Below, piece after piece: positions 35,887 to 42,018 of a stretch of 61,268 nt of DNA (its first letter is position 1; the number at the start of each line of letters is the position of its first letter). Made by a program: the position numbers and the translations under genes. The DNA is from SAR116 cluster alpha proteobacterium HIMB100 (GTDB lineage Bacteria; Pseudomonadota; Alphaproteobacteria; Puniceispirillales; Puniceispirillaceae), in assembly GCA_000238815.2 (NCBI GenBank), contig AFXB01000002.1, positions 1-61,268 of the forward strand. The letters run 5' to 3'. Below the pieces are notes generated by a model, which was given only the letters and a program-made list of their open reading frames with translations, was not told the DNA's origin and ran no database searches.

Positions 35887-37404
35887 ATGAAAACGATTTT
35901 TATCCTGTTTGACAGCCTGAACCGGTCCGCCCTGTCCTGCTATGGTGGCACAATACAGACACCGCATTTCGACAGGCTGGCCAGCCGCGCAGCACTGTTT
36001 GACAATCATTTTGCGGGGTCTTTGCCCTGTATGCCCGCAAGACGGGATATGCAAACAGGACGATTGAATTTCCTGCATCGCAGCTGGGGACCGCTTGAGC
36101 CATTTGACGACAGCTTTGCTGATCGAATGAAAACTGCAGGTGTTTACAGCCACCTTGTGTCTGATCACTATCATTATTTTGAAGATGGCGGGGCCACTTA
36201 TCATACCCGCTATTCCAGCTGGGATTTCATCCGTGGGCAGGAATCAGACCCTCATATCGCGATGGTTGAACCGCCATTGGACAGATTCAGACAAGCTTAT
36301 CACCCTCTGCAATTTGAAGAACATCGTAATGGACACCGCCTGCAAGGGATGATCAACCGAGATGCGGTCAAACAAGAGGCAGATTATCCGGTTGTGAAAT
36401 GTATCGATTCAGCGCTGGCCTTTTTGGCTGAAAACCATGTCGCCAAAAATTGGTTTTTGCAGATGGAAACCTTTGATCCTCATGAACCGTTTACCGCCCC
36501 AAAAGCTTATCGCAACACCGATACAGGCTATCATGGTCCGACCCTGGATTGGCCACGCTATAAGCAGGTTGAGGAAACCGCTGAGGAAGTTGCCGAGCTT
36601 AAGGAAAACTATGCCGCACTGGTCAGGTTCTGTGACGCGCAATTAGGCCGTTTGTTGGCTGCTTTTGATGCGTATAATCTCTGGCAGGATACAGCTATTG
36701 TGCTGACAACTGATCATGGCTTTTTGCTGGGTGAACATGACTGGTGGGCAAAAAACAGGATGCCGTTTTTCAATGAAGTTGCCCATATCCCGTTGATGAT
36801 TTATCACCCTGAGATGAGCGTTGATGCGGGCAGCCATATCTCAGCGCTGACCCAAACTGTTGATTTAATGCCGACCTTTCTTGAACTGCAAGGCCTGCCT
36901 GCGGATGGATATATGACAGGCCGGTCACTGTTGCCGCTGCTGTTTGGCGCCGGTACAACCGGACGCGAGATCGCCCTTTTTGGCATTTTTGGAGGCGCGC
37001 TGAACGCCACTGATGGCCGATACAGCTATTTCCGCTATCCAGAGGATATGGAAACCACGGACCTGTTTGAATATACGTTGATGCCAATGCATAACCGCAG
37101 CTTGTTTGAGATAAGAGAGTTAGCACAGGCTGACCTTTATCGCGGTTTTTCCTTCACAAAAGGCGCACCTGTTCTGCAAATACCAGCCTTAAAAGATGCC
37201 AAACGTTCACCACGCCAGGGCGGATTTGCCCAAACCCAAACCTGTCTTTACGACCTGCACGCAGATCCAGGGCAGACCCGCCCCTTCAGAGATGCTGAAA
37301 TCGAATCCCACCTGATGGAAGCAATACGAGCGGAGATGTCTTCCCACGAAGCACCTGAAGAGATATATCTGCGGTTTGATATGAATGCTGGTGCTGCCTT
37401 ATAA
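35887..37404 (+). CDS. Sulfatase family hydrolase (type I, formylglycine motif)
   Basis: It hydrolyses sulfate esters, or in related members phosphonate or phosphate esters. The 505-aa protein has the metal Asp9 in FDSLNRSALSCYGG and the formylglycine motif C48-M-P-A-R (CxPxR) in SLPCMPARRDMQTGR. The second metal site is TTDHGFLLGEHDWWAKN. No signal peptide is visible, so it acts in the cytosol on an imported substrate. No formylglycine-generating enzyme is encoded in the window. It is divergent from the CoA-transferase operon and upstream of matB. Confidence 0.85.
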   Translation: MKTIFILFDSLNRSALSCYGGTIQTPHFDRLASRAALFDNHFAGSLPCMPARRDMQTGRLNFLHRSWGPLEPFDDSFADRMKTAGVYSHLVSDHYHYFEDGGATYHTRYSSWDFIRGQESDPHIAMVEPPLDRFRQAYHPLQFEEHRNGHRLQGMINRDAVKQEADYPVVKCIDSALAFLAENHVAKNWFLQMETFDPHEPFTAPKAYRNTDTGYHGPTLDWPRYKQVEETAEEVAELKENYAALVRFCDAQLGRLLAAFDAYNLWQDTAIVLTTDHGFLLGEHDWWAKNRMPFFNEVAHIPLMIYHPEMSVDAGSHISALTQTVDLMPTFLELQGLPADGYMTGRSLLPLLFGAGTTGREIALFGIFGGALNATDGRYSYFRYPEDMETTDLFEYTLMPMHNRSLFEIRELAQADLYRGFSFTKGAPVLQIPALKDAKRSPRQGGFAQTQTCLYDLHADPGQTRPFRDAEIESHLMEAIRAEMSSHEAPEEIYLRFDMNAGAAL

Positions 37405-37464
37405 GCACAATTACCCACCTTAAAATTTTGCGTTGATAACCTGAAAAAAGAAGAGAGCCTTGTG

Positions 37465-38970
37465 ATGAGTAACCATCTTTATGATGATGTGTTCGCCCCG
37501 ACTGAAAAATCAGAAAAACCGTTTCTGATCACACCAGAAGGCAGCCTGTCCTATGCTGCATTTCACAAGCGGGTAAACCAGCTGGCTCATGCGCTGGTGG
37601 CCAGTGGCATGAAAACCGGAGACAGGGTGGCGGTTCAGGCAGCAAAGTCTGTCTCACAGCTCGCCTTATATGTCGCCACAATAAAGGCCGGTGGTGTGTA
37701 TCTACCACTGAACACCAGCTATACCGCACATGAGCTGGATTATTTTATTTCCAATGCAGCGGCCCGTCTGGTTGTCGTCGATATGAAAGCCGAAGAAGCG
37801 GTAACACCCATAGCCGAGGCACAGGGCGCAAAATTGCTGACATTAAATGCAGATGAAAGCGGCACATTACCTGATCTGGCCGAAACTCAGCATGACCAAT
37901 TTGATCCGGTCGACAGAGGGTCTGAGGATTTGGCGGCCATATTATATACATCTGGCACAACTGGCCGGTCCAAAGGGGCCCAGCTATGTCATCGCAACCT
38001 GTTATCTAATACAGAAGTATTGCGGGAATTTTGGCGGTTTACAGCCGATGATGTGCTGCTTCATATGCTGCCGATTTACCATACACACGGCCTGTTTGTA
38101 GCGTGCAATCTGTTGGCCATGGTGGGCGGAAGCATGATTTTCCTGCCAAAATTTGACGCAGACAAAGCCCTGGCCTTCCTGCCGCAGGCCACCACAATGA
38201 TGGGTGTACCAACCTTCTATACCCGTCTGTTGGCAGATGAACGCTTCACCCGTGAGGCCAGCCAGCATATGCGTCTGTTTATTTCTGGATCGGCCCCGCT
38301 TCTTGCAGAGACCCATAAAAGTTTTGAAGCCAGAACAGGAAAGAAAATTCTGGAGCGTTATGGCATGACAGAAACCAATATGAGCACATCAAACCCCTAT
38401 GATGGAGACCGGATTGCAGGAACGGTTGGCTTACCCCTGCCTGGTGTGGAGTTGCGGATTGCTGATGCAAAAACAGGAGAGAGCCTGGCTGACGGAGAAA
38501 TTGGTATCATTGAGCTGAAAGGGGACAATGTCTTTACTGGCTATTGGCAAATGCCAGAAAAAACAGCTGAATCTTTCCGTGATGACGGGTTTTTCATCAC
38601 CGGCGATATGGCGCGCATTGACGAAAATGGCTATGTGGTGATTGTTGGCCGGGACAAGGATTTGATTATCTCTGGCGGCTTGAATGTCTATCCTAAGGAG
38701 ATTGAAAGCCTCATTGACGAGATAGACGGCGTCACCGAATCTGCGGTTATTGGCGTGCCGCACCCCGATTTCGGAGAGGCTGTTGTTGCTGTCATTGTTT
38801 CAGAAGATAATGACCTGAATGAAGACAAGGTCATGGCCTATGTCACGGACAAGCTGGCTAAATTTAAACAGCCAAAGGCTATATTCTTCGTTGAAGCCCT
38901 TCCCCGCAACACCATGGGCAAGGTACAGAAAGTCACTTTGCGCACTGAGCATAAAGGATTGTTTGTTTAA
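37465..38970 (+). CDS. matB: Malonyl-CoA synthetase (MatB-like acyl-adenylate synthetase)
   Basis: It is an ANL-superfamily ligase making malonyl-CoA from malonate, ATP and CoA. The 501-aa product has the P-loop ILYTSGTTGRSKGAQLCHRN, the A5 motif LERYGMTETNMSTSNPYDG, the A7 motif FFITGDMARIDENGYV and the A10 lysine in PRNTMGKVQK. GMTETNMSTSNPYDG and the short length fit MatB more than longer acyl-CoA synthetases. A related methylmalonate or short-diacid activity remains possible. ATG 37465 is chosen over the preceding GTG. No malonyl-CoA decarboxylase gene is adjacent. Confidence 0.82.
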   Translation: MSNHLYDDVFAPTEKSEKPFLITPEGSLSYAAFHKRVNQLAHALVASGMKTGDRVAVQAAKSVSQLALYVATIKAGGVYLPLNTSYTAHELDYFISNAAARLVVVDMKAEEAVTPIAEAQGAKLLTLNADESGTLPDLAETQHDQFDPVDRGSEDLAAILYTSGTTGRSKGAQLCHRNLLSNTEVLREFWRFTADDVLLHMLPIYHTHGLFVACNLLAMVGGSMIFLPKFDADKALAFLPQATTMMGVPTFYTRLLADERFTREASQHMRLFISGSAPLLAETHKSFEARTGKKILERYGMTETNMSTSNPYDGDRIAGTVGLPLPGVELRIADAKTGESLADGEIGIIELKGDNVFTGYWQMPEKTAESFRDDGFFITGDMARIDENGYVVIVGRDKDLIISGGLNVYPKEIESLIDEIDGVTESAVIGVPHPDFGEAVVAVIVSEDNDLNEDKVMAYVTDKLAKFKQPKAIFFVEALPRNTMGKVQKVTLRTEHKGLFV

Positions 38971-39027: not shown

Positions 39028-39627
39028 ATGATGCTGAACGTTCCGCCATCAGAATCCGGGCCAACCATTGAAGATTATTGCGGGCTGCGTCCGGAAATTG
39101 ACGAGACCGCATATATTGCCAGTACAGCCGCAATTATGGGGGCGGTTCGTATCGGAGCTGATTGTTCGATTTGGCATAATGTAACCCTACGCGGTGATGC
39201 CAATTACATCACTATCGGCAAAGGCAGCAATATTCAGGATAACTCAGTGGTGCATATTGATTCAGGCGTTCTGCCCACCGTAATCGGAGACTATGTCACA
39301 GTGGGTCATGGCGCAATTGTGCATGCCTGTACATTACATGATCGCAGCTTTGTCGGGATGGGCGCAATTGTGCTGGATGGGGCCGTGGTAGAGAGCGGAG
39401 CAATGGTCGCTGCAGGTGCGTTGGTTCCGCCTGGAAAAATTGTCCCCTCTGGCCAGCTATGGGCAGGCAGTCCGGCAAAATTGATGCGCGAGATGGATGA
39501 AACAACACAGAATAAATTTCTGCAGACCGCACATAAATATGTTGAGTTCGGTCGTGCGGCCCGACTGGGCCTTGATGGGGGTCCCTATAATTTCAAACCG
39601 GTTCCCTTACCGCCATTGAATGACTAA
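39028..39627 (+). CDS. Gamma-carbonic-anhydrase-like hexapeptide-repeat protein
   Basis: The 199-aa protein is a left-handed beta-helix. Hexapeptide repeats run from about residue 34 to 135 (for example GAVRIGADCSIWHNVTLRGD). The potential zinc histidines are in NSVVHIDS and VTVGHGAIVHACTL. It resembles the PaaY/CaiE/gamma-CA group, whose members can be carbonic anhydrases or CoA-thioester hydrolases. It follows matB by 57 nt on the same strand, so a thioesterase or carboxylation-supporting role is conceivable. ATG codons at 39028 and 39031 are both possible; the AAAGGAG spacing slightly favours the second. Confidence 0.8.
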   Translation: MMLNVPPSESGPTIEDYCGLRPEIDETAYIASTAAIMGAVRIGADCSIWHNVTLRGDANYITIGKGSNIQDNSVVHIDSGVLPTVIGDYVTVGHGAIVHACTLHDRSFVGMGAIVLDGAVVESGAMVAAGALVPPGKIVPSGQLWAGSPAKLMREMDETTQNKFLQTAHKYVEFGRAARLGLDGGPYNFKPVPLPPLND

Positions 39628-39632
39628 AGGAC

Positions 39633-39803
39633 CTAGTTCTTCTCTGTTTGCGTACAGGGCGCCCCACATGGCGCACAGGCATTGCCCAAATCTGAAGGTG
39701 AACCAACATCTGTCAGCGCTGTGCTGGTCAGATGATCGCCAATCAGCAGAACTGAGCCAACCAGGACAATCAGCAGATAGATTTGTTTTGGCGAAATGGT
39801 CAT
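39633..39803 (-). CDS. Small single-TM cysteine-rich protein of the sulfur module
   Basis: The 56-aa product starts at an ATG with a perfect AGGAGG Shine-Dalgarno 8 nt upstream, 13 nt after the YeeE-like gene stops. Residues 8-23 form one hydrophobic helix (YLLIVLVGSVLLIG). The tail has a C43-x2-C46-x3-C50 arrangement (NACAPCGAPC). I recognise no family. Its position as the third gene after a rhodanese and a thiosulfate-type permease suggests a persulfide carrier or transporter accessory. A longer reading frame upstream overlaps the permease gene and is not supported. Confidence 0.6.
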   Translation of the reverse strand: MTISPKQIYLLIVLVGSVLLIGDHLTSTALTDVGSPSDLGNACAPCGAPCTQTEKN

Positions 39804-39816
39804 CTTATCAGCCTCC

Positions 39817-40959
39817 TTATTTTTCAAGACCGAACCGCGGGCGTAACTGTATTCCAGCCCAGCTGCCCGCCATCGCCAAAACAAACCACACCCACCCATG
39901 CAGAGAGCCTGAGGCGATACCGCCTAAAAAGGCGCCTATGTTGCAGCCGAAAGACAGACGCGCTCCAATGCCCATCAGCACCCCGCCAAGTGCCGCCGCC
40001 AAAAGCTGGCGCGCAGATGGCCAGGTCTGAGTGGTTAATTGACCAGATACAGCGGCGATCATCGCTGCACCAAGCACCATGCCAATATTCATCAGGCTGG
40101 ACACATCAGACAGTAAGGAATGTTTCAGCGCACGTGCAGGCCCCGCCCATTGCCAAAAGGTAAATTCAGCAACAGGCACCCCTAAATCCTGAGCCAGCTT
40201 TGCACCCCATAATGTAAAGCCGAAGGTCACGCCCCAAGGGTGGCCAGACAAAACAAACACTGCCCAGCATAACAGCGCGATGCTCACACAAGCCCACAGC
40301 AAACGTCGCGGCAAGTGCTGGCCACGACGACGGCCGAGGCTATAAAAGCCAACGCCAACAGCAGCGATCAGCGCAAGATTGACAAGCGTCCTTGCCCCAT
40401 CAGACAAACCACCGGCAATGGCCACCTGGCCAGCAGAGCCCCATTCGAGCGCTGATGGCAACAAAAATGACCCCAACACGGAACCAATGATGAAAAACGG
40501 CAACGCAATCATCATCCGGCCTGAGCCGCCACCGAAACTGAATAATACACCTGACCCACAGCCATTGGCCAATTGCATGCCGAGCCCGAACATAAAGGCG
40601 CCGACAAATAAAGATACAGATACTGGTGCAACCGAACCAGACGCATCCAGCCCCAGCATAGCCGCAGGGATAAAGACTACCGCACATAAGCCAATCAAGA
40701 GAAAATGAGCCGCCAATCCCATGACCTCACCACGGACCAAAGCATGGCGCCAGGCAGAGGCAAAACCATATTGAAAAGTCAGAAATACAGCACCTAAAAG
40801 GCCCCCAAGCCCAAAAAGACCAAGTCCGGTCAGGCCAGTATCAAGACTGACAAGACCGGCGATCATCACCGCAATACCGCCAAACAAAATGAGACTGCCT
40901 GTCTCAAAGCTCAGCTTTTGACGATAGGATGTTGGGATTGTCGATACGGTTTCAGGCAT
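39817..40959 (-). CDS. YeeE/YedE (TsuA-like) sulfur-compound transporter
   Basis: The 380-aa inner-membrane protein has about 9-10 hydrophobic segments and the duplicated Cys motifs of the family: GMQLANGCGSGVLFSFGGG with Cys134 and RLSFGCNIGAFLGGIASGSL with Cys339. Family member TsuA imports thiosulfate through conserved cysteines. ATG 40959 is preferred over 41007 because AAGGAC precedes it and the extra 16 residues are not conserved in type. It is downstream of a secreted rhodanese, which could present or process the sulfur compound. Confidence 0.87.
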   Translation of the reverse strand: MPETVSTIPTSYRQKLSFETGSLILFGGIAVMIAGLVSLDTGLTGLGLFGLGGLLGAVFLTFQYGFASAWRHALVRGEVMGLAAHFLLIGLCAVVFIPAAMLGLDASGSVAPVSVSLFVGAFMFGLGMQLANGCGSGVLFSFGGGSGRMMIALPFFIIGSVLGSFLLPSALEWGSAGQVAIAGGLSDGARTLVNLALIAAVGVGFYSLGRRRGQHLPRRLLWACVSIALLCWAVFVLSGHPWGVTFGFTLWGAKLAQDLGVPVAEFTFWQWAGPARALKHSLLSDVSSLMNIGMVLGAAMIAAVSGQLTTQTWPSARQLLAAALGGVLMGIGARLSFGCNIGAFLGGIASGSLHGWVWFVLAMAGSWAGIQLRPRFGLEK

Positions 40960-41052
40960 GTCAGAGGTCCTTATACTGTTCACAGACAATGGCGAGGGCT
41001 GGCACACTGCACGCGCATGCCAGCCGGTGTCACGCTAAGCAGACATTACCTT

Positions 41053-42018
41053 TTACCCCAGGATTGATTTAAAGAACCCTTTAATTTTATCGAGGTTCGA
41101 TTTACCCGTATCCAGAGGGTTGTCAGCATTAGCTGTCCATTCCACCATTGAGCCATCATAAAGCTTAACATCTTTGCGGCCCAGAACTTCTGAAAGTACA
41201 AACCAGTTTGTCGCAGCCCAGTGTCCGGTGTTGCAATAGCTGATTACAGGCTGACCAGCATCCACCGCAGCATATAAAGTCTGCAACTCGTCAACTGACT
41301 TCAGCTTGTTTGTTTCAACATCATAAGCTGTTTCCTGGAACAACATTTGCGCCCCTGGAATACGGCCGGGATTTGTGGCCTTCGGGTGTTTGGCTTCACC
41401 ATAAAATTGGGCTTCATTGCGTCCGTCAAGCAAGGTTGTTTTGCCTTTGCTCTCTACCAAAGCTGCCACCTGTTCGATTGACACATAACCTTGTGGCTGG
41501 AAGCGGGCGACAAAGTCACCTGGTACAGGGGCGACAGGTGCGCCGGTTTCGATTTGCCCCGGATAGGCCGCAACCCATGCTGCATAACCACCATTCAGAA
41601 TAGACACTTTGTCATGGCCAAAAACCTTAAACGTCCAATATGCACGCGCTGAAGAGCCAAAATCAGTTGAATTCACCCCTGCAGGGATCAAAACAACATG
41701 GCTGCCCGCAGATACACCCAACTTGCGCGCCAACGCTTCAAACTCAGCTTCAGTCGGCAAAAGCCCAACCACATCATCTCGGCCAACACGCCAGCCATCT
41801 TTAAGATAGTCTGAATGAAGTGATGAGGGGATGTGGCCGTCCAGATAGGTTTCATAACTGCCCTTATCGATTTCATTACGCAAATCGATCAGAACCACAT
41901 TTTCATTATCAAGATTACCAGCCACCCAGTCGACATCGACCAGAGGCTGTGCAGTTGCCGCTGTGGCTAAACCAGTCCAGAACAAAAGCACAGCACATAA
42001 ACGCTTTAAGAACACCAT
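41053..42018 (-). CDS. Periplasmic tandem-rhodanese sulfurtransferase
   Basis: It transfers sulfane sulfur from thiosulfate or 3-mercaptopyruvate. The 321-aa protein has a signal peptide (LKRLCAVLLFWTGLATAATA, cleavage near AQP), an inactive first rhodanese domain (about 25-155) and a second one with the catalytic Cys262 in ISYCNTGHWAAT, preceded by LLDGRNEAQFYGE. The CNTGHWA loop differs from the CGSGVTA loop of mercaptopyruvate sulfurtransferases and is nearer thiosulfate-type enzymes. AAAGGAGG supports the start. It heads the operon with the YeeE-like transporter and the small Cys protein. Confidence 0.88.
   Translation of the reverse strand: MVFLKRLCAVLLFWTGLATAATAQPLVDVDWVAGNLDNENVVLIDLRNEIDKGSYETYLDGHIPSSLHSDYLKDGWRVGRDDVVGLLPTEAEFEALARKLGVSAGSHVVLIPAGVNSTDFGSSARAYWTFKVFGHDKVSILNGGYAAWVAAYPGQIETGAPVAPVPGDFVARFQPQGYVSIEQVAALVESKGKTTLLDGRNEAQFYGEAKHPKATNPGRIPGAQMLFQETAYDVETNKLKSVDELQTLYAAVDAGQPVISYCNTGHWAATNWFVLSEVLGRKDVKLYDGSMVEWTANADNPLDTGKSNLDKIKGFFKSILG

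Follow-up and report, generated by a model that had tools for sequence, protein, structure and literature searches.

A conserved third gene for a predicted membrane-tethered, cysteine-tailed protein accompanies rhodanese–YeeE-like permease pairs in SAR116 bacteria and beyond

The locus described here lies in contig AFXB01000002.1 (assembly GCA_000238815.2) of the SAR116 cluster alphaproteobacterium HIMB100, of which positions 1 to 61,268 of the forward strand were analysed (61,268 nucleotides (nt), hereafter the window). Three genes on the minus strand form an operon in the order rhodanese (42018-41053), permease (40959-39817) and small open reading frame (ORF; 39803-39633). An earlier reading of the same DNA, made without database searches (the sequence-only reading), had proposed a sulfane-sulfur import module here, and its coordinates, gene order and strand all proved correct when the sequence was read again. 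The rhodanese (41053-42018) is a predicted sulfurtransferase of 321 amino acids (aa) with two domains, a signal-like N terminus and the active loop CNTGHWA. The permease (39817-40959) has the YeeE/YedE fold (Sulf_transp) and comprises 380 aa when counted from the ATG at 40959, with a possible upstream GTG at 41007.

The third gene (39633-39803) encodes a protein of 56 aa. Its ATG occupies 39803-39801 and its stop codon ends at 39633; the TAA of the permease (39817-39819) is followed by 13 nt up to this ATG, and a perfect AGGAGG (39812-39817), overlapping the permease stop, stands 8 nt from it, both as the sequence-only reading had it. A hydrophobic helix at residues 8-22 (39738-39782), followed by Asp23, is indicated by hydropathy and by an AlphaFold2 model, in which the helix spans residues 5-25 and the tail is of low confidence; this agrees with the single helix proposed earlier, and the C-x2-C-x3-C pattern reported with it is present as CAPCGAPC at residues 43-50 of the C-terminal tail (39654-39677). 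No Pfam family was found for the protein at E ≤ 1, nor any match in NCBIfam or among PDB sequences. Only five bases separate the end of this gene from that of a plus-strand gene for a hexapeptide-repeat protein (39028-39627), and the operon was therefore taken to stop here.

To judge conservation, 136 genomes of the window's order were searched at a permease threshold of E ≤ 1e-20, and the permease was found in 28. A homologue of the small protein lies directly after the permease in all 26 of the genomes with a close permease (at least 54% identity), and the other two loci (L027 and L028, permeases of 38-39% identity) carry a diverged third gene with the tail motif APSGAHC. Close relatives were also found in named records from the SAR116 cluster and other Alphaproteobacteria (26 loci, 14 of them taken as duplicates of order loci); when the 28 loci of the order were taken together with two from these records (L034 and L035), BLAST detected a homologue immediately behind the permease at 28 of the 30, L027 and L028 being the other two. 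An alignment of 27 sequences (A1; L004 was omitted from it and from the selection test because of ambiguous bases) shows D23, H24, S27 and C43 to C50 invariant, so that CAPCGAPC is identical in 27 of 27 rows, all eight residues unchanged while the synonymous codons vary. The profile built from A1 gave 26 strong matches in the 136 genomes (E ≤ 2.4e-20), in the same 26 genomes that have a close permease and all at that permease, and there are therefore no orphan copies in the order; four further matches were weak and partial. The proportion of nonsynonymous differences (pN) was below that of synonymous differences (pS) in all 351 pairs of the 27 gene sequences, and among the 47 pairs whose pS was below 0.6, the 25 listed had a ratio of the corresponding rates (dN/dS) of 0.12-0.61. 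The small ORF is a real gene. That it might be a chance ORF is suggested by its shortness and by annotated records of Sinorhizobium meliloti, Sinorhizobium medicae and Aestuarium, which list no gene at the corresponding place in their incomplete gene tables, but the invariant residues, the purifying selection and a position fixed across classes refute this explanation and leave it next to no probability. An absence of conservation in relatives, which the sequence-only reading had named as grounds for giving up the small frame, is thus the opposite of what was found.

The association of the third gene with the pair was examined at 94 permease loci by a scan for ORFs of 40-260 aa whose start lies between -43 and +74 nt relative to where the permease stop ends, with a 15-residue stretch near the N terminus of mean hydropathy of at least 1.6 and at least one cysteine after it; because a cysteine was demanded, third genes lacking one escape detection. 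Such a gene was found at 42 of the 44 loci with a rhodanese directly upstream of the permease and at 3 of the 50 without an adjacent upstream rhodanese. At one of the two pair loci without it (L050) the contig ends inside the permease. Two of the three positives beside rhodanese-less permeases (L124 and L141) looked unrelated or spurious on reading. Plasmids were covered as well, by 14 records hand-picked from 77 that bear a rhodanese; 10 of these, including two of S. meliloti pSymB, have a permease beside the rhodanese, and all 10 carry the third gene (the others are L181, L183, L184 and L191). The other genome searches gave 47 permease places, of which 17 without a locus were excluded, and 39 places, of which 9, likewise without a locus, were excluded (one of them, G233, is L143). 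Nine permease loci of Bacillota showed neither a rhodanese match upstream nor a cysteine-tail gene. Mapped on a quick tree of 93 permeases, the distribution of the small gene requires 4 changes, compared with about 31 when shuffled, and the gene may have had a single origin. At most loci permease and third gene overlap by 4 nt, stop on start, or are separated by a short gap, which suggests translational coupling. It is this genome context that supports the earlier proposal of the small protein as a component of the module. As a separate observation, the permease of L148 (G188; 8174-7107, minus strand) belongs to the only testable pair without a nearby cysteine-tail gene, and its tree neighbour L121 is rhodanese-less.

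The CxxCxxxC protein beside yeeE was also sought in other genomes, as the sequence-only reading had proposed, and the CAPCGAPC form was found in another family and in other classes. A second alphaproteobacterial family has all three genes with this motif (G391 and G519, out of 10 genomes in its order), and so have two genomes from other classes of the phylum (L158/G776 and L163/G639). Elsewhere the third slot holds proteins with different tails: (NPCAA)n repeats with 8 to 28 cysteines (L119, L120, L153 and L154), a single cysteine around GSG-x(2,4)-GG/GA-x-C (L027, L028, L144 and L178), or SMPCGLGG (L140 and L143). Forms of 97-124 aa with 4-11 cysteines were found on plasmids of Rhizobiaceae (S. 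meliloti pSymB, S. medicae pSymA, Ciceribacter and Neorhizobium), and 54-aa forms ending in GGFCGALP plus one residue on plasmids of Rhodobacterales (Qingshengfaniella, Paracoccus, Marivivens, Haematobacter and Aestuarium), four of which are annotated as hypothetical proteins (WP_168201363.1, WP_170851896.1, WP_197498092.1 and WP_165496732.1). The diverged forms L119, L189 and L185 gave no match in NCBIfam, and in Pfam only a sub-threshold match of L189 to TgpA_N (11.4 versus 30 bits). With 1 to 28 cysteines in the proteins of this slot, C-x2-C-x3-C is not the essential trait. In a class sample of 385 genomes, profile A1 matched 39 at E ≤ 0.1, of which 4 were convincing (three already rows of A1; G391 is new); 8 loci among the other 35 weak matches were read, and no homologue was found among those 8. 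Profile A5, built from the one-cysteine form, matched 2 of the 385, G192 being a row of A5 and G419 a match only (E = 4.9e-4). The module is therefore patchy in its distribution.

A common anatomy emerged when 52 small proteins were compared. Their hydrophobic run is 15-17 residues long (21 in L185), and in 50 of the 52 its N-terminal side is more positively charged than its C-terminal side; because of this excess the tail is predicted to be periplasmic, on the same side as the rhodanese and the outer relay cysteine of the permease. All 52 have an Asp at the membrane exit (49 by script; L158, L163 and L185 by reading), and the last cysteine lies 1-14 residues from the C terminus in 50 and 38 and 44 residues from it in two Sinorhizobium forms. 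The predicted shared core is thus an N-in/C-out helix, an Asp at the membrane exit and at least one cysteine in a flexible periplasmic tail. Helix, exit Asp, tail cysteine and position after a rhodanese-linked permease together define the proposed group of third-gene proteins, and the window's protein has all four. Helix and exit Asp are the most constant of these features and, along with the likely translational coupling, would suit a subunit with a role in permease structure or assembly that docks through them, uses its tail cysteines for disulfides or quality control and carries no sulfur. Only one of 43 testable pair loci failed the cysteine-demanding scan, however, and the tail cysteine is therefore close to universal; its retention at the other 42, the 47 of 50 permeases without an adjacent rhodanese that manage without the small gene, and the single-cysteine versions, which cannot form an internal disulfide, argue against a purely structural subunit, which we consider unlikely although it ranks second among the readings.

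Another reading makes the small protein a guard that would buffer thiols or bind metal in the periplasm and so shield the thiols of rhodanese and permease, most clearly in the forms with up to 28 cysteines. Cysteine-rich repeats (L119, L120, L153, L154, L182, L190 and Sinorhizobium), the ability that CxxCxxxC could have to bind soft metals, and a siderophore-interacting protein gene just upstream in Haematobacter are consistent with such a role. The forms with a single tail cysteine (among them L027, L028, L144, L178, L185-L188 and L192) would nevertheless be poor metal binders, which disfavours a metal site as the core function, and the seven annotated plasmid contexts that have the pair show no recurrent metal gene; a guard is accordingly placed third and judged improbable.

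The permease passes the PF04143 gathering score (156.6 versus 27 bits), and its model, with a predicted local distance difference test score (pLDDT) of 82, aligns with four YeeE entries at Z 32.0-34.0, the next entry reaching 6.1; Foldseek matched it to 6leo at E = 1.7e-9. In StYeeE, the relay cysteines follow in the order C293, C91 and C22 (PMC11073785). By profile alignment, Cys340 (39943-39945) is the counterpart of C293, the first and outermost, Cys135 (40558-40560; P0002 numbering) that of C91, the second, and Gly66 (40765-40767) takes the place of C22, which lies at the YeeD interface. The counterparts of Cys135 and Cys340 are cysteine in 93 of 93 permeases, and that of Gly66 is glycine in 89 of 89 non-gap rows of the same 93, with or without the small gene. 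The permease had been called YeeE/TsuA-type in the sequence-only reading; the YeeE fold stands, but TsuA is too specific. Both equivalog cut-offs are missed by far (NF052577, 59.7 versus 400 bits; NF041049, 15.7 versus 645 bits), only the first two of the three relay cysteines expected of TsuA are kept, and no PF01206 match for an adjacent YeeD/TusA was found among the nine window proteins scanned, the sole TusA match of the genome lying on another contig (C10:45964-46164). The highest NCBIfam score, itself below the cut-off, is that for the YedE/FdhT selenium family (NF033796, 119.4 versus 350 bits), and it raises the possibility that the module handles selenium instead of sulfur. The window's genome has selD, as do 21 of the 28 order genomes with the permease against 67 of the 108 without it. 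Seven of the 28 permease genomes nonetheless have no selD at E 1e-40, three of these (G097, G099 and G123) being 92-97% complete, and 67 genomes have selD and no permease; selD does not track the module closely, and we regard a selenium role as very improbable. The selD of the window's genome (L194; G000:C1:305139-306065) lies in an open frame of 745 residues and may be a fusion, similar lengths being common in the order.

The rhodanese passes the PF00581 cut-off (94.2 versus 22.2 bits), has a PDB relative in 1urh (E = 1.4e-31) and is assigned to the rhodaneses by this domain together with its active-site cysteine loop; no NCBIfam model scored above its cut-off. The loop CNTGHWA is kept in 41 of 43 upstream rhodaneses, with CNTGWFA in L140 and L143. 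Secretion is predicted from the signal-like N terminus. Rhodanese fold and cysteine loop are shared with PspE, which is periplasmic (PMC2593051), and with 3-mercaptopyruvate sulfurtransferase (1urh), but PspE has a single domain, whereas the window's enzyme has two, the CNTGHWA loop and an operon with a permease and a cysteine-tail peptide. In S. meliloti, the putative exported rhodanese thtR (SMb21549) is 29.3-fold up in a tolC mutant (PMC2912261) and positively controlled by Hfq (PMC3484140); this is probably the pSymB rhodanese of the three-gene operon.

The third gene is therefore a real, conserved and hitherto unnamed addition to rhodanese–YeeE transport. Our first choice for its product, which may equally well prove right or wrong, is a membrane-tethered periplasmic arm, a carrier or a looser adaptor, of a rhodanese–YeeE sulfur-import module, since one near-constant cysteine lies in a flexible tail predicted to be on the side of the rhodanese and the outer relay; a cysteine count that varies is also easier to reconcile with a carrier than with a fixed metal or disulfide site. 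The secreted rhodanese would load sulfane sulfur, from thiosulfate, persulfide or polysulfide, onto its active-site cysteine; the small protein, held next to the permease in N-in/C-out orientation and perhaps in complex with both partners, would accept it on the tail cysteine and present it at the outer mouth, from where it would pass to Cys340 and then Cys135. At the minimum, the small protein would hold rhodanese and permease together. Import, as opposed to export, is taken from the YeeE family. The passing or guarding of persulfide put forward in the sequence-only reading is a plausible idea. More tentatively, and with the chances rather against it, the proteins could constitute a new type of carrier, a family of swinging-arm peptides (rhodanese to arm to Cys340 to Cys135) with capacities of 1 to 28 cysteines; import would then be channelled with a partner cysteine at the entrance, not at the cytoplasmic exit as in YeeE–YeeD.

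Several observations weigh against the periplasmic arm. At the pair locus L122/L148 the 5.3 kb of same-strand sequence searched holds no small ORF, and L123, a permease without an adjacent rhodanese, holds a cysteine-tail gene that by reading seems a true relative. Nor are the loci independent, 28 of the 44 pair loci belonging to a single family in the window's order, with L034, L035 and L050 as near relatives; owing to this kinship, Fisher's exact p of 2.5e-21 (42/1 versus 3/46, excluding L050, with its contig end, and L134, with its rhodanese on the other strand) is far too small. The charge bias fails for L118 and L123. Profile comparisons between the three tail classes are weak (hhalign probabilities 49.7, 61.6 and 53.8; E = 1.7e-4, 7.8e-5 and 1.3e-4 as single comparisons), and the case for their common descent therefore depends chiefly on position, topology and the Asp. 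The third relay position is glycine also in 47 of 47 non-gap permeases without the small gene, and glycine is thus no marker of a small partner.

The import of sulfur into the cytoplasm has been called poorly understood (PMC11582611), and the proposed periplasmic arm would differ in placement from known arrangements. The thiosulfate uptake system YeeE/TsuA with YeeD/TsuB (Spirochaeta thermophila, 6leo and 8k1r) shares the permease fold, the counterparts of C293 and C91 and a small cysteine-bearing partner encoded beside the permease. YeeD is a TusA-type protein with a CPxP motif, and its docking site is at the cytoplasmic face close to C22 (PMC11073785), whereas here C22 is replaced by glycine, no adjacent YeeD was found, and both partners are predicted outside; the small protein itself has a hydrophobic helix, CAPCGAPC in place of CPxP and no Pfam match, and is no TusA/YeeD. 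The partner of YeeE seen in structures thus acts inside, and the link of the conserved third gene with a secreted rhodanese suggests one outside. SoxT/YeeE-like proteins of sulfur oxidizers share the permease family and a role in sulfur import (PMC11582611), but they are encoded with sulfur-oxidation genes. A Sox link was rejected for the window's genome, where no SoxY match was found. In SoxY, a cysteine in the Gly-rich C-terminal GGCGG arm carries sulfur in the periplasm (PMC6067878), and the GGFCGALP tails, whose GGFCG resembles that motif, may work alike; the small protein is no member of that family, however, being membrane-tethered, without a SoxY domain match and in a genome without a Sox carrier. 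Hyphomicrobium has two YeeE-like SoxT proteins, one of which functions in signal transduction (PMC11582611), and this would fit a small protein that senses sulfane sulfur or gates the permease without carrying it; the seven annotated contexts show no recurrent regulator gene beside the operon, the LacI-type gene upstream being confined to Paracoccus, and we hold a sensor or gate to be quite improbable. The YTD cluster (yeeE, tusA, dsrE-like, chp1 and chp2) is likewise centred on yeeE with conserved genes of unknown function, but its partners are TusA-like and DsrEFH-like (PMC13047784), and the "small membrane protein" of that source lies near dsrOP homologues, not yeeE. No description of the third gene was found among the matches listed in the open-access literature searched. 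A function is thereby proposed for a number of short "hypothetical proteins" and for ORFs missing from some records, and the presence of the module in marine SAR116, Rhodobacterales and S. meliloti pSymB makes it genetically tractable.

Some cassettes of the Rhizobiaceae type have a possible fourth gene after the cysteine-tail gene, encoding a protein with domain of unknown function DUF6969 (PF22308) or a similar His-rich protein (L180:6484-7071 by Pfam; L179:8594-9181, L147:5817-6422 and ORFs in L182 and L190 by reading). On S. medicae pSymA it is followed on the same strand by a gene for the substrate-binding protein of a sulfate ATP-binding cassette transporter (L180:7221-8246), a further hint of sulfur metabolism. 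Downstream of the one-cysteine cassette of G094 (L113:8644-10401), an apparent metallo-β-lactamase-fold (persulfide dioxygenase-like) gene and a split PmpA/PmpB-like pair were identified by reading. In the window itself, positions 35887-38970 hold a sulfatase gene (PF00884) followed by an AMP-binding enzyme gene, both on the plus strand.

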